Source of the DNA: an uncultured Oscillospiraceae bacterium
Lineage (GTDB): Bacteria; Bacillota; Clostridia; Oscillospirales; Oscillospiraceae
Direction: 5' to 3'
Assembly: GCA_934630985.1 (NCBI GenBank)
Contig: CAKTXO010000045.1
Coordinates: 1 to 10,812, forward strand
DNA length: 10,812 nucleotides
The notes beneath the pieces were generated by a model. That model searched no databases and was not told where the DNA came from. It was given only the letters and a program-made list of their open reading frames with translations. The position numbers and the translations under genes are program-made. Every line of letters begins with the position of its first letter. The stretch's first letter is position 1. This document shows, piece by piece, positions 6,557-10,812 of the stretch.

Positions 6557-7381
6557 ATGAGTTCTTGTAGCGGAGATTGTTCCAGCTGCGGCAGCACCTC
6601 CTGCGGTGAGCGCACCGCGGAGAGCCTGCTGGCTCAGCTGAATCCCAAAGCCAGCGTCAAAAAGGTCATCGCCGTGGTTTCCGGCAAGGGCGGCGTGGGT
6701 AAGTCTACCGTCACCGCCATGCTGGCAGTTGCCATGGCCCGACAGGGGAAGCGGACGGCTGTCCTGGATGCGGATATCACCGGCCCTTCCGCCCCTACGG
6801 CCTTCGGAGTTACCGAGTGCCAGGGTGCCAATGAGGACGGCCTGTATCCTGCCCTGACCCGGGGCGGGATACAGGTTATGTCCATCAACCTGCTGCTGGA
6901 CAATCCGGCAGACCCGGTGGTCTGGCGGGGCCCGGTGATCGCCGGTGCGGTCAAGCAGTTCTGGACGGACGTTATCTGGGAGGACGTGGACTATATGTTT
7001 GTGGACATGCCTCCCGGAACCGGCGACGTGCCCCTGACCGTGTTCCAGAGCCTGCCCATTGACGGCGTGGTTATCGTGACCACACCCCAGGATCTGGTGT
7101 CCATGATCGTGGCCAAGGCCGTGAAGATGGCGAACATGATGCACGTTCCTGTGCTGGGCTTCGTGGAGAACTATTCCTATCTCCAGTGCCCGGACTGCGG
7201 CAAGAAGATCAGTGTTTTCGGCAAGTCTCACCTGGATGAGATTGCGTCCCAGTTCCAGCTTCCGGTGCTTGCCCGGCTGCCCATTGACCCGGCTGTTGCC
7301 GAGGCCTATGACAACGGCCAGATGGAAACCGTGAACACCGACGGTGTCAACGAGGTTATTCAGGCAATCCTCAAAGCTTAA
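6557..7381 (+). CDS. Mrp/NBP35-family P-loop ATPase, Fe-S cluster carrier
   Basis: This is a cytoplasmic scaffold/carrier ATPase of the Mrp/NBP35 (ApbC) group, which passes iron-sulfur clusters to target proteins. The protein has 274 residues. The deviant Walker A SGKGGVGKST (42-51) carries the signature lysine K44; DADITGPS, VWRGPVIAGAVKQF and FVDMPPGTGD follow and are diagnostic of the family. A CPDC motif (C211, C214) is the expected bridging cluster site at the dimer interface. The N-terminus has a second cluster of cysteines, C4, C8, C11 and C16, in a Ser/Gly-rich tail. That recalls the N-terminal ferredoxin-like site of NBP35, but with different spacing. There is no MIP18 domain in front, unlike E. 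coli Mrp. The ATG is preceded by AAGGAG at 10 nt. It is transcribed alone, with its own promoter and terminator. Confidence 0.93.
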   Translation: MSSCSGDCSSCGSTSCGERTAESLLAQLNPKASVKKVIAVVSGKGGVGKSTVTAMLAVAMARQGKRTAVLDADITGPSAPTAFGVTECQGANEDGLYPALTRGGIQVMSINLLLDNPADPVVWRGPVIAGAVKQFWTDVIWEDVDYMFVDMPPGTGDVPLTVFQSLPIDGVVIVTTPQDLVSMIVAKAVKMANMMHVPVLGFVENYSYLQCPDCGKKISVFGKSHLDEIASQFQLPVLARLPIDPAVAEAYDNGQMETVNTDGVNEVIQAILKA

Positions 7382-7388
7382 AACAGGA

Positions 7389-7416
7389 AAAAAGCTCAGC
7401 AAATGCTGAGCTTTTT
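7389..7416 (+). terminator. Intrinsic terminator of the Mrp-type gene
   Basis: AGCTCAGC (7393-7400), loop AAAT, and GCTGAGCT (7405-7412) form a perfect 8-bp stem. It extends by A-T pairs (7389-7392 with 7413-7416) and ends in a T run. The flanking A tract also makes it partly usable from the minus strand. Confidence 0.93.
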
Positions 7417-7433
7417 CTAATAAACGCAATCAT

Positions 7434-7450
7434 TTTACATAGATTTTACA
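7434..7450 (+). promoter_or_regulatory. PhoP-box-like direct repeats upstream of the response regulator
   Basis: TTTACA at 7434-7439 and again at 7445-7450 are separated by 5 nt, giving an 11-bp period. A third TTTACA (7468-7473) is the -35 box itself. The hexamer fits the B. subtilis PhoP consensus TT(A/C/T)A(C/T)A, whose boxes are repeats with about 5-nt spacers. The reading as an autoregulatory site is inferred. Confidence 0.5.
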
Positions 7451-7467
7451 ATTGCAGGAATGCCAAG

Positions 7468-7496
7468 TTTACAGGGGAATGGTAGGATAGTATAAA
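7468..7496 (+). promoter_or_regulatory. SigA-type promoter of the two-component operon
   Basis: The -35 box TTTACA (7468-7473), a 17-nt spacer and the -10 box TATAAA (7491-7496) each differ from consensus by one base. The expected start is near 7503. The ribosome binding site GGGAGGGG (7504-7511) then lies at the very 5' end of the mRNA, so the leader is extremely short. Confidence 0.78.
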
Positions 7497-7518
7497 TAGA
7501 AACGGGAGGGGTTTTCCT

Positions 7519-8184
7519 ATGATATACTGTGTGGAAGATGACAACGCGATTCGGGATCTGATGCTCTACACGTTAGGGGCTTCCGGATTTCAGGCCAAGG
7601 GCTTTCTGGACAGCAACGGCTTCTGGCAGGCCATGACCGAAGAAAAGCCGGAGCTGATTCTGCTGGACATTATGCTCCCCGGAGAGGATGGCATTACGGT
7701 GCTCAAGCGGCTCCGGGCTGCCTCAGCTACGGCAAACATTCCTGTGATTATGGCAACCGCCAAGGGCAGCGAATTTGACAAGGTTATCGGCCTGGACACC
7801 GGGGCGGACGACTATCTGGTCAAACCTTTCGGCATGATGGAGATGATCGCCCGGATTAAGGCGGTCATGCGCCGCACCGCCCCCAAAACCGACCAGGTGC
7901 TGACCTGTGGGAATATTGTGCTGGACGAAACCCGGCACATCGTCACCGTTGACGGCAAACAAGTGGTGCTGACCCTGAAGGAATATGAGCTTCTGAAACT
8001 TCTCATGGAGAACGCCGGTCAGGTCTTTACCCGGGATATTCTGCTCTCTCGCATCTGGGGACAGGACTATCTGGGAGAAACCAGAACCGTGGACGTGCAC
8101 ATTGGCACTCTGCGCACGAAGCTTGCCAAGGGCGGGGAGAAAATCGAAACCGTCCGGGGCGTTGGCTATAAGATGGTGGAGTAA
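7519..8184 (+). CDS. OmpR/PhoB-family response regulator, PhoP/PhoB-like
   Basis: This is a DNA-binding response regulator, phosphorylated by the kinase encoded next to it. The protein has 221 residues. The receiver domain (about 1-115) has the acidic pair D7/D8, the phospho-acceptor D50 in LILLDIMLPGEDG, T80 in IMATAKGSE and K102 in DDYLVKPF, all of the required residues. The C-terminal winged-helix domain (about 125-221) has LTLKEYELLKLLMENAGQVFTRDILLSRIWG and the closing RTVDVHIGTLRTKLAKGG...TVRGVGYKMVE typical of OmpR/PhoB. The ATG follows GGGAGGGG by 7 nt. The kinase gene begins at the base after its stop. Assignment to phosphate sensing rests on the partner kinase's extracellular domain style and the TTTACA repeats upstream; no pst or phoU gene is in view, so the stimulus stays an inference. 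Confidence 0.94.
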   Translation: MIYCVEDDNAIRDLMLYTLGASGFQAKGFLDSNGFWQAMTEEKPELILLDIMLPGEDGITVLKRLRAASATANIPVIMATAKGSEFDKVIGLDTGADDYLVKPFGMMEMIARIKAVMRRTAPKTDQVLTCGNIVLDETRHIVTVDGKQVVLTLKEYELLKLLMENAGQVFTRDILLSRIWGQDYLGETRTVDVHIGTLRTKLAKGGEKIETVRGVGYKMVE

Positions 8185-9537
8185 ATGAATAAGAAGATTT
8201 TTCACGTCATTCTGGTAGTGGCGATTCTTGTTTTTCTTGCCAGCCTGATGTTCATCATGGGCATTACCTACGACTATTTCACCCAGCTCCAGCGAAATCA
8301 GCTCCGGGCGGAGACCCAGCTGGCGGCAAAGGGTGTCGGTATGTCCGGACAGGATTATTTTGAGGATATGCAGGTCAGCGGCTATCGGCTGACCTGGATT
8401 GCGCCGGATGGGACTGTGCGCTATGACAGTCAGGCGGATACCAGCCAGATGGAGAATCACCTGACCCGGGAAGAGGTGAGGGAGGCTTTCGCCAGCGGCT
8501 ATGGGGAAAGCAGCCGCTATTCCAGCACCCTGGCGGACAAGCAGCTCTACGCCGCCCAGCGACTGGCGGACGGCACGGTTCTGCGGCTTTCCATTGTGCA
8601 GATGTCCATGTGGATGCTGATTTTGAGCTTTGCCAGACCCATCTGCATTGTGATCTGCATCGCTCTGGTGCTGTCCATGGCGCTGGCTTCCAGCCTGGCT
8701 CGGCGGATTGTGGAGCCGATTAACGAAATTGACCTGGATAAGCCGAAACAGTACTACGGCCAGCCGGACTATGCGGAGGTGGAGCCTCTGCTTCGCAGGA
8801 TTGCCAGCCAGCAGGAACAGCTGAAGCGGGACAATGCCCAGATTGAAAAGGCGTCTCTGATTCGCCAGGAGTTTACAGCAAACGTATCCCATGAGCTGAA
8901 AACACCCCTTCACGCCATTTCCGGCTACGCCGAGCTTCTGGAAAACGGCATGGTGCGGCCGGAGGACGTGAAGCCCTTCGCCGGGAAGATTCGGGCGGAG
9001 TCTGCCCGGATGACCAGCCTGGTAGAGGACATCATCGACCTGACCAAGCTGGACAACGGCGGCGCGGAGATGACCTGGGAGGACTGCGACCTGTACCGGA
9101 TTGCGGAAAACGCGGTAGACAGCCTGATGACCACCGCCGAGGCGGAGAATGTGAGACAGGACTTGTCCGGCGGTCATGCCATGGTGTACGGCGTGCCCCA
9201 GCAGCTGTACAGCATTGTCTATAATCTCTGCGAGAACGCCATCAAGTATCATACCGCCAACGGCAAGGTCTGGATCCGGGTAAACCAGGACGCCTCCGGA
9301 GTCACCTTGCAGGTTCAGGACAACGGTATCGGCATTCCGGAGGACTGCCAGGATCGGATTTTTGAGCGATTCTACCGGGTGGACAAGAGCCGCTCCAAGG
9401 CCGCCGGCGGCACAGGACTGGGACTTTCCATCGTCAAGCACGCGGTTCTGATTCACAAGGCCTATATCCAGGTGCGCAGTAAGCCGGGCATTGGGTCAGA
9501 ATTTACGGTTTTCTTTCCCAATCGAAAAGAAAAATAA
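8185..9537 (+). CDS. Membrane sensor histidine kinase, PhoR-like
   Basis: This is a membrane kinase that autophosphorylates and passes the phosphate to the adjacent response regulator. The protein has 450 residues. TM1 is about residues 5-27 and TM2 about 145-171, enclosing an outside domain of about 115 residues. That domain carries RLTWIAPDGTVRYDS, MENHLTREEV and YAAQRLADGTVLRLS, the layout of Firmicute PhoR-type sensors. SLARRIVEPINEID after TM2 resembles the start of a HAMP linker, and no PAS domain is evident before the catalytic core. The core is complete: H-box FTANVSHELKTPL with phospho-acceptor H236, N-box NLCENAIKYH (N347, N351), G1 DNGIGIPED (379-387), F-box RIFERFYR and G2 GGTGLGLSI (408-416). 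The ATG directly follows the regulator's TAA with no gap, so translation is probably coupled. PhoR is the best guess, and other PhoR-like cell-envelope sensors are possible. Confidence 0.93.
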   Translation: MNKKIFHVILVVAILVFLASLMFIMGITYDYFTQLQRNQLRAETQLAAKGVGMSGQDYFEDMQVSGYRLTWIAPDGTVRYDSQADTSQMENHLTREEVREAFASGYGESSRYSSTLADKQLYAAQRLADGTVLRLSIVQMSMWMLILSFARPICIVICIALVLSMALASSLARRIVEPINEIDLDKPKQYYGQPDYAEVEPLLRRIASQQEQLKRDNAQIEKASLIRQEFTANVSHELKTPLHAISGYAELLENGMVRPEDVKPFAGKIRAESARMTSLVEDIIDLTKLDNGGAEMTWEDCDLYRIAENAVDSLMTTAEAENVRQDLSGGHAMVYGVPQQLYSIVYNLCENAIKYHTANGKVWIRVNQDASGVTLQVQDNGIGIPEDCQDRIFERFYRVDKSRSKAAGGTGLGLSIVKHAVLIHKAYIQVRSKPGIGSEFTVFFPNRKEK

Positions 9538-9550
9538 TGGAAAACAGTAG

Positions 9551-9566
9551 ATTTCTTCGAAGAAAT
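9551..9566. repeat. Perfect 16-bp palindrome upstream of the queA -10 box
   Basis: ATTTCTTCGAAGAAAT is a perfect dyad ending 1 nt before the extended -10 element, so it covers roughly -17 to -32 of the putative promoter. This position suits a repressor or activator site. No T run follows it, so it is a poor terminator. Confidence 0.65.
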
Positions 9567-9567
9567 A

Positions 9568-9576
9568 TGCTATAAT
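9568..9576 (+). promoter_or_regulatory. Extended -10 promoter, probably for queA
   Basis: TGCTATAAT combines a perfect -10 hexamer (9571-9576) with the TGn extension. No recognisable -35 sits 16-18 nt upstream; that space holds the 16-bp palindrome. The start is expected near 9583, a few bases before the MITE-like element. Confidence 0.6.
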
Positions 9577-9598
9577 GCCCCCCAGTGACTGATACTGT

Positions 9599-9630
9599 TT
9601 TCTGATTAAAATCTTGATTTTAATCAGAAA
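9599..9630. repeat. 15-bp inverted repeat, left palindrome of the element
   Basis: TTTCTGATTAAAATC (9599-9613) is the perfect reverse complement of GATTTTAATCAGAAA (9616-9630), with only TT between. It shares the core ATTAAAATC / GATTTTAAT with the hairpin at the other end of the element. Confidence 0.9.
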
Positions 9631-9660
9631 GGCAACACCTCACGGCGTTGCCCGTTTTGT
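9631..9660 (+). terminator. Terminator-like hairpin inside the element
   Basis: GGCAAC (9631-9636) pairs with GTTGCC (9647-9652); past one A-C mismatch, CC pairs with GG around a TCAC loop. CGTTTTGT follows on the + strand, and TTTCTGATT follows on the - strand. It is the first plausible stop signal after the histidine kinase gene and may work in both directions. The T tracts are short, so strength is uncertain. Confidence 0.5.
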
Positions 9661-9687
9661 GATTTATAAGGAAAGAAATCACAAAAC
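9654..9687. repeat. 12-bp inverted repeat with 10-nt loop
   Basis: GTTTTGTGATTT (9654-9665) is the perfect reverse complement of AAATCACAAAAC (9676-9687). The loop is ATAAGGAAAG. It is the central hairpin of the MITE-like element. Confidence 0.88.
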
Positions 9688-9717
9688 AAGTCTCATATGA
9701 ATTCCATGCCCTTCAGG

Positions 9718-9748
9718 CAATTAAAATCTTTTCTAAAGATTTTAATTG
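9718..9748. repeat. 14-bp inverted repeat, right palindrome of the element
   Basis: CAATTAAAATCTTT (9718-9731) is the perfect reverse complement of AAAGATTTTAATTG (9735-9748), with a 3-nt centre. It is enclosed by TGAATTCC (9698-9705) and GGAATTCA (9748-9755), which also pair. Confidence 0.9.
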
Positions 9749-9770
9749 GAATTCAGTATGAAATTGCAAA

Positions 9771-9777
9771 AGGGGAG
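9771..9777 (+). promoter_or_regulatory. queA ribosome binding site
   Basis: AGGGGAG ends 7 nt before TTG at 9785, a good spacing. An in-frame ATG at 9758 has only a weak GGA upstream, within the stem of the inserted element, so the TTG is preferred. Confidence 0.65.
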
Positions 9778-9784
9778 AGCATTG

Positions 9785-10812
9785 TTGGAATATCAGGAAG
9801 AAGCTCAAAAGGACATTGGGCTTCAAACGAAGGACTATTGGTATGACCTGCCGGAAGAGCTGATCGCGCAGACCCCTCTGCAAAAGCGCGACGCCTCCCG
9901 GCTTATGGTTTTGGATCGAGAAACCGGGGAAATTGCCCACCGGCATTTTTATGAGGTGCTGGACTATCTGAATCCCGGGGACTGCCTGGTGATGAACGAT
10001 TCCCGGGTGCTGCCCGCCCGGCTTCTGGGACACCGTCCCACCGGCGGGGCAGTGGAAGTTCTGCTTCTGCGGGATCTGGGGAACGGGTGCTGGGAGTGCC
10101 TGTGCAAGCCCGGCAAGAAGATGCAGCCCGGCAGCACCGTCAGCTTCGGAAACGGGGAGCTGACTGCTACCGTAAAGGAAGTCCGCGATGATGGCAACCG
10201 GGTGTTGGAGTTCCACTATGAGGGCATTTTCCTGGAAGTTTTGGAGCGACTGGGGAAAATGCCCCTGCCGCCCTACATCAAGGCAGAGCTTGCCGATCAG
10301 GAGCGGTATCAGACGGTGTATTCCCGGGAGGTAGGCTCCGCCGCGGCGCCAACTGCTGGACTTCACTTCACGAAAGAGCTGCTGGAAAAAATCCGGGAAA
10401 AGGGTGTAAAAGAGGCTTTTGTAACGCTGCATGTGGGCTTGGGCACCTTCCGGCCTGTGAAGGCGGACAATATCTTGGAGCATCACATGCACTCGGAGCT
10501 GTGCATGATGAACGAGGAGACCGCCGAACTGCTGAACGAGACCCGGAAAAAGGGCGGGCGGATCATTTGCGTGGGCACTACCTCCTGCCGTACCCTGGAA
10601 TCTCTGGCGCAGCCGGACGGTTCCTTCCGGGCGTGCTCCAAATGGACGGATATTTTCATCTATCCGGGGTACAAATTCAAGGCCATGGATGGGCTGATTA
10701 CGAATTTCCATCTGCCGGAGAGCACCCTTGTCATGCTGGTTTCCGCTTTCGCCGGACGGGAGCATGTGCTGAACGCCTACAAAATCGCGGTTCAGGAAAA
10801 GTACCGCTTTTT
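9785..10812 (+). CDS. queA: tRNA preQ1(34) S-adenosylmethionine ribosyltransferase-isomerase (3' end cut by window)
   Basis: QueA transfers and isomerises the ribosyl part of S-adenosylmethionine onto preQ1 at tRNA position 34, forming epoxyqueuosine, the penultimate step of queuosine synthesis. It is cytoplasmic. Seen in order (numbering from TTG 9785): [13 protein letters not shown] near residue 20, [10 protein letters not shown], a variable beta-domain (about 75-150), [16 protein letters not shown] (189-196), [21 protein letters not shown] (264-273) and [31 protein letters not shown]. About 342 codons are present and the frame is still open at the window end, after [13 protein letters not shown]; family members usually end about ten residues later. 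The start is uncertain. TTG 9785 has the best ribosome binding site but leaves about 12 residues more than most homologues have before [11 protein letters not shown] 9758 would add nine more. Its leader carries the MITE-like insertion. Confidence 0.94.

Follow-up and report, generated by a model that had tools for sequence, protein, structure and literature searches.

The block that separates the queA promoter from the queA ribosome binding site in the analysed stretch of DNA (10,812 nt, here called the window) is one copy of a dispersed MITE family. Its duplicated target is TNA (3 bp), here TGA, and the TA at each end belongs to the terminal repeat. We consider it very probable that the element, 166–168 bp across the family, is moved in trans by the IS630-family transposase of a lineage of ~1.1-kb insertion sequences (IS) that inserts at TNA.

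An earlier note on this DNA had described a non-coding, hairpin-filled element with the ends TA-CTG...CAG-TA and a terminal inverted repeat. The ends are present at 9593–9594 and 9757–9758, and an inverted-repeat search returned two arms of 24 nt (9592–9615 and 9736–9759) that are 83% complementary. The body folds far better than its shuffles, both as DNA (9593–9758, z −11.6) and as leader RNA (9577–9790, z −7.0), with 0 of 200 shuffles as good in either case. None of the listed ORFs (at least 60 aa) is the element's own; the overlapping ones are an antisense ORF and the queA frame extended at its 5′ side. The proposed length of 162 bp becomes 166 bp, since the direct repeat marking the insertion is TGA. 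The window copy scored 111 bits with the covariance model of the family, being itself among the model's 64 sequences. The element is thus short and without a transposase ORF, has terminal inverted repeats (TIRs) and a target-site duplication (TSD), and occurs in multiple dispersed copies in relatives, as a MITE should. The features are collected in Table 1.

Table 1 Features of the window around the queA leader.
Feature	Position	Strand	Basis
Mrp-type ATPase	6557–7381		identity read from translation
Response regulator	7519–8184		identity read from translation
Histidine kinase	8185–9537		identity read from translation
queA promoter, extended −10 (TATGCTATAAT)	9566–9576	+	alignment with L001, L002, L016
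TSD, left copy, TGA, 3 bp	9590–9592	+	TNA duplication in the family; queA empty sites
MITE, 166 bp, TACTG...CAGTA, four hairpins	9593–9758	+	inverted repeat, folding, covariance-model match
Left TIR (pairs with 9736–9758)	9593–9615	+	inverted-repeat search
H1 hairpin, arms 15 bp	9599–9630	+	inverted repeat; covariation helix 1
H2 hairpin, GGCAAC...GTTGCC, highest G+C of the stems	9631–9652	+	folding, covariation
H3 hairpin, arms 12 bp	9654–9687	+	inverted repeat; covariation helix 3
Linker GTCTCAT, unpaired	9690–9696	+	high conservation between copies
H4 hairpin and outer stem; inner arms 9718–9731 / 9735–9748	9698–9755	+	inverted repeat, folding, helices 4–6
Right TIR	9736–9758	+	inverted-repeat search
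TSD, right copy, TGA	9759–9761	+	sequence
queA, TTG start chosen (second TTG at 9782), runs beyond window end	9785–10812	+	

Of 25 related genomes searched with the window copy, 10 matched at E ≤ 0.1, and the best match was a full-length copy, 92% identical, in Pseudoflavonifractor sp. MSJ-30 (G004). With a copy from genome G015 as the query, 31 of 136 genomes from the genus of the nearest relative (G001) matched at E ≤ 1e-4, six candidates being scored per genome. This set includes three Candidatus Faecousia genomes (G009, G018 and G020), among which only G018 matches. A right-end probe (E ≤ 10) found many more sites in G015, G001, G005 and G016. In all, we collected 94 distinct complete copies (at least 60 nt of flank on each side, the window copy counted) and 78 distinct partial copies. 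The complete copies start with TACT in 92 cases and end with CAGTA in 87, and they adjoin many different genes. The dispersed copies with common ends that the earlier note had proposed to look for are therefore present, in relatives, and its counter-case of a single copy is excluded for the family. Beyond the genus, the family looks rare in the genomes searched: 2 of 300 genomes from the family to which G004 belongs match, G004 being one of them, and an order-level search with stricter filters found 1 of 295, which is G001 itself. The plasmid and phage records searched with the G015 copy gave no match.

Since the copies in G015 are near-identical, the MITE and its presumed partner IS appear to have been recently active in at least this genome. 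In one subfamily from G015, H2 contains an additional hairpin-like module of ~40 bp (L187 2852–3061, L198 3213–3006 and L189 1059–855). Short internal-deletion derivatives, such as one of 62 bp in L139 (464–525), keep both ends. Two viral contigs (L241 2772–2820 and L244 620–668) share one remnant, from the element's right half, following a gene that reads as a phage structural protein; three others that were read (L240, L246 and L248) hold no copy.

The earlier note had proposed a duplicated TA. Instead, equal TNA triplets stand on both sides of 79 of the 94 complete copies, where N is A in 46, G in 19, C in 9 and T in 5, and TRA makes up 65 of these 79 targets. The agreement does not reach the next base (15/79). 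Among the remaining 15 copies, nine have TNA on both sides with a different N, five have a one-sided TNA and one has CGA on either side. Equal triplets were the selection criterion for the 20 copies used to train the search profile (19 and the window copy), which are therefore not independent evidence for TNA.

Filled and empty sites prove the same independently. In a cutC operon (gene names are our reading of the sequence) of G024, the element has the TAA stop of the preceding gene on one side and, on the other, TAAGGAGG ahead of cutC. The corresponding empty sites in G391 (L307) and G389 (L324) have a single TAA directly before GGAGG, the ribosome binding site. Of the 30 cutC loci fetched, this one is filled; L307, L316, L319 and L324 match both flanks (69–81% identity) and lack the element, L316 and L319 having a TGA stop at the site, and in the remaining 25 only the right flank matches. 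An all-against-all comparison, run automatically, returned no empty sites, and none of five other genomes searched contained the left flank of the copy shared by G010, G011 and G018.

A conventional IS630/Tc1-type MITE of 162 bp, CTG...CAG, with a 2-bp TA duplication would account for the TA at both ends, and IS630 and RUP insertions are reported at TA in the part of the literature consulted (PMC2229807). We regard this as very improbable. Outside the TA, the base flanked by T and A is the same on the two sides of 79 of 94 copies, and each of the four bases occurs there. The unoccupied cutC sites (L307 and L324) have a single TAA and no TAATATAA, and the queA loci described below align without a gap under the TGA model but need one under the TA model. 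Empty sites reading TNATATNA would fit a TA duplication, a model that these data already contradict. We therefore conclude from the equal triplets and the filled and empty pairs at cutC and queA that the duplication is TNA.

Scanning genome contigs with QueA gave 80 loci, the closest being 87% (L001) and 86% (L002) identical. In both, and in L016, the promoter (CAGTAG and the extended −10) and a short leader are present and the element is absent. When the element and one TGA are removed, the window aligns gap-free to L001 and L002 from the −10 to the Shine-Dalgarno sequence, whereas keeping one TA instead requires a gap; L016 aligns poorly downstream of the −10. We searched 62 queA-locus sources with the covariance model (the window, L001–L059, L069 and L071; the 19 other loci, from more distant species, lie outside this set), and the element stands before queA in the window only. 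At E ≤ 0.1 the model otherwise matched only a copy at another place in L001 and, weakly (22 bits), the edge of L029. The queA copy is thus an insertion, since only the window of the 62 sources has it and two close relatives keep the leader without it. The non-autonomous element proposed for the queA leader is borne out by these empty sites and the dispersed copies, with a single TGA where a single TA had been expected. The extended −10 and the ribosome binding site do flank the element as proposed, and once the element and one TGA are removed the leader comes out 5 nt shorter than under the TA model.

The strong predicted structure and the covariation among copies (below) might also be those of a riboswitch-like conserved leader RNA of queA, with no insertion involved. 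We find this scarcely credible, as none of the other 61 sources searched shows the block before queA, the copies adjoin many different genes, and Rfam gave no match to the window at gathering score. For seven loci with copies, none of the 11 Rfam matches up to E 1 reached its gathering score, and we take them as chance. The queA leader RNA was rejected on these grounds. A hairpin block conserved before queA across genera, named beforehand as evidence against an insertion, was not seen in the 62 sources, and the compensatory changes lie between dispersed copies.

Together with one TGA, the insertion adds 169 nt, mostly hairpins, to the queA leader, and leaves the ribosome binding site outside the element. 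The last A of the element and the duplicated TGA create an ATG (9758–9760) in the queA frame, 27 nt upstream of the TTG. No intrinsic terminator was seen on the plus strand of 9500–9830; the same scan found one terminator-like site on the minus strand. Any effect of the element on queA is putative. In the predicted RNA fold, a C-run at the 5′ end of the leader (9577–9583) pairs with the ribosome binding site (~9768–9780), both outside the element. Upstream of the −10, CAGTAG lies at 9545–9550, and the promoter is kept in relatives without the element. The decamer GAAAACAGTA at 9540–9549 is the exact reverse complement of the first ten bases of the element; this match looks like chance, because its CAGTA part is promoter sequence conserved in relatives. 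The sequence directly before the promoter in L001, L002 and L016 reads like the end of an mrp-type gene, while in the window (7382–9545) a response regulator and histidine kinase pair lies between the mrp-type gene and the queA promoter.

We then compared the hairpins between copies in an alignment (A1) of 64 sequences, hand-picked from the 90 complete copies listed. Paired bases occupy 97.7% of the cells of the structure. Double changes affect 32 of 50 pairs and 399 cells, compared with 20.0 and 123.3 in shuffles, and 0 of 500 shuffles reach either value; covariation is found in every helix. When the structure is slid along the alignment, pairing falls to 36–49%, a control that leans towards the structure since the structure was derived from A1 itself, and the copies are related, which makes the cells not independent. 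Selection on one transcribed strand should leave more G-U than A-C states, yet G-U occurs in 33 cells and A-C in 27 (p 0.52), with 47 other mismatches. The core of four hairpins is under a base-pairing constraint. As the G-U states are no commoner, we infer that this constraint works on the DNA, or on both strands, and not on a single transcribed strand. At the DNA level, this could be hairpin recognition in transposition or arm-to-arm template switching. The latter could also make the arms agree, but 62 of 64 copies keep a C-U or U-C mismatch at one H2 position (the window copy, with A-U, is one of the two exceptions), which speaks against it because correction of this kind ought to remove the mismatch. 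Our reading of the role of the core leans towards the DNA level. The linker has TCT in all 64 copies. At 9689–9696 of the window (A1 columns 101–108) it reads CGTCTCAT in most copies and AGTCTCAT in the window, and it includes a site recognised by a type IIS enzyme, which may be chance.

The position of the copies relative to genes was examined with home-made gene calls based on codon usage, which make the following enrichment provisional. Among the 79 copies with equal triplets, 73 are intergenic and 6 lie inside predicted genes. For 26 of the 73, the insertion coincides exactly with a stop codon, which reads in the direction of the element in 22 cases and against it in 4. The expectation is 14.4 (N-weighted) or 12.9 (uniform), and 26 was reached in 5 of 100,000 weighted simulations. 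The left-hand gene of the intergenic copies is co-oriented in 53 cases, opposed in 17 and uncalled in 3. These calls supersede a first test with a crude ORF finder, which gave 13 of 43 against 8.6 expected and placed 36 of the 79 copies in ORFs, read as mostly antisense. The window copy sits in a leader and not at a stop codon.

The enrichment follows in part from the choice of TRA targets, and selection against damage may add the remainder. Another explanation is that the core is a selected 3′-UTR RNA, for example a processing or stabilising signal, which spread on IS630 ends and was kept after stop codons. The excess at stop codons, mostly in the direction of the gene (22/26), the highly conserved unpaired linker and the covariation in every helix would all fit such an RNA. 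We consider it unlikely, since G-U is not in excess of A-C and the TRA preference alone favours stop codons and fixes the orientation. In addition, the internal-deletion derivatives are also flanked by TNA, equal by eye in L139, L179, L209, L212 and L217 and unequal in L202. Returning to the IS630-mobilised MITE, a wider scenario is possible, which we put forward tentatively. A transposase of the IS630 lineage may have switched from TA to TNA with a purine preference. With TRA serving as the stop codon TAA or TGA, insertion would rebuild the stop and add a co-oriented hairpin cassette, a near-harmless docking with the core under pairing selection of its own.

The earlier note had also called for a matching transposase, and one of the IS630 family with similar ends was found in relatives. 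Before the IS630 search, looking through the fetched loci for long elements bounded by TACT had led nowhere. DDE_3 (PF13358) occurs in 6 of 15 genomes with the MITE, and elements of 1112–1117 bp with TACT ends surround the DDE_3 genes. G015 has two identical copies of 1117 bp, flanked by TGA/TGA and TCA/TCA, and G005 has one copy flanked by TGA/TGA. Judged from their flanks alone, these three intact copies therefore show TNA and not the TA duplication expected of the IS630 family. Two overlapping frames encode the transposase, and seven consecutive A lie where they overlap. ORF B of L285 scores 133 bits with NF033545 (IS630, NCBIfam; cut-off 100) and 73.5 bits with PF13358 (cut-off 28.6), and ORF A alone scores 54 bits with NF033545, below the cut-off. 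Of ten IS ends, seven match a MITE end at 20–21 of 24 bases, while at least 20 is reached by 1 of 300 random AT-rich controls. IS matches (E ≤ 1e-20) were found in 7 of the 136 genomes of the genus, 6 of the 31 with the MITE and 1 of the 105 without it (Fisher p 5.5e-4). From these ends and TNA flanks, the ~1.1-kb IS630-family elements are the likely mobiliser.

Several observations count against this pairing. The other three IS ends match at just 17 of 24 bases, a value that 35 of 300 controls reach or exceed. Equal triplets flank only 3 of the 7 IS copies with both ends in view; the unequal flanks belong to an internally deleted copy in G404 (L289, TTA/TCA), a contig-edge copy in G009 (L295, TTA/TCA) and nested pairs, apparently in the same place, in G001 (L288) and G402 (L287), TAA/TTA. 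The MITE-positive genomes lack an IS match at E ≤ 1e-20 in 25 of 31 cases, and G009 has the IS without a MITE match; repeats, the IS included, may be lost from draft assemblies. By eye, no counterpart of the internal core of the MITE was seen in the IS sequences. In the nested pairs (L288 902–2815, and L287), one IS630-type copy lies inside the other or faces it head to head, and stops interrupt the transposase frames.

The IS protein has many relatives, with 4606 of 4711 candidates reaching E ≤ 1e-20. Of the 120 that were listed, three are named by source, two of them as an IS630 family transposase of Oscillospiraceae. The protein had no match in phages. Its plasmid relatives are less than 60% identical, and the flanks of those whose ends were read cannot separate TA from TNA because N hardly varies.

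Insertion sequences of the IS5/IS1031-type group duplicate TNA. A different transposase, for example of this type, could thus have moved the MITE, and the 25 of 31 MITE-positive genomes without an IS630 match would be accounted for. We hold this to be improbable, as the IS630 copies do carry TACT ends and TNA flanks, whereas none of 31 genomes had PF13359 above cut-off (two had it weakly), PF01609 was present in 2 of 9 and PF13586 was above cut-off in 1 of 15, with no TACT end pair around any of these matches. An IS5-type partner was rejected, none with matching ends having been found in the combinations of families and genomes covered.

We propose that the IS630-family transposase would recognise ends that start with TACT and insert at TNA, with TAA and TGA preferred in the orientation of the element, duplicating the three bases. 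It would act on the MITE in trans, and the queA copy presumably arrived in this way in the lineage of the window. The system adds a MITE/IS pair for a little-studied group of gut bacteria and, for the IS630 type in bacteria, an example in which three bases, TNA, are duplicated. It could be used to test whether the targeting of stop codons reduces the harm done by a mobile element, and the covariation without an excess of G-U offers a way to ask whether MITE hairpins persist as RNA or as DNA.

We compared the element and its partner with known systems, drawing on sections of the cited papers. Judged by titles and abstract openings, and with a MITE review (PMC10969869) in the scope, the papers listed in our literature searches gave no description of the family or of a bacterial IS630 TNA duplication. 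The partner IS resembles the IS630 family (NF033545) in an ORF B above the cut-off, two overlapping ORFs with an A7 run, and TIRs. It differs in its TNA duplication, TA being reported for the IS630-Tc1-mariner group (PMC8533490). Other target lengths in this group are reported for eukaryotic or mixed branches (PMC7386202, PMC8533490), such as TAA/TAAA for Fot (PMC7386202) and TATA for Sailor (PMC8533490). The pogo/Fot elements share the transposase group and a 3-bp duplication (PMC7386202) but are eukaryotic, with TAA rather than TNA with a variable N.

Among structured bacterial MITEs, ERIC and Correia/NEMIS can likewise lie in transcribed regions, and the orientation of ERIC matters for the transcript (PMC2229807). 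Both are known from other hosts, and they are set apart from the queA MITE here by description, not by sequence. SPRITE of Streptococcus pneumoniae is likewise enriched near the 3′ ends of genes, but it is terminator-like and its duplication could not be established (PMC3049150), whereas the queA MITE has no terminator-like site on the plus strand and its family docks on the stop codon itself. In the sections compared, the closest known pair is RUP with IS630-Spn1 (PMC2229807, PMC3049150). Like the queA MITE, RUP of S. pneumoniae is short, dispersed and non-coding, has ends resembling those of the co-resident IS630 and forms a structured transcript (PMC2229807, PMC3049150). RUP is 107 bp long and is reported to target TA, whereas the queA MITE, of 166–168 bp and from another host group, targets TNA and carries four covarying hairpins.
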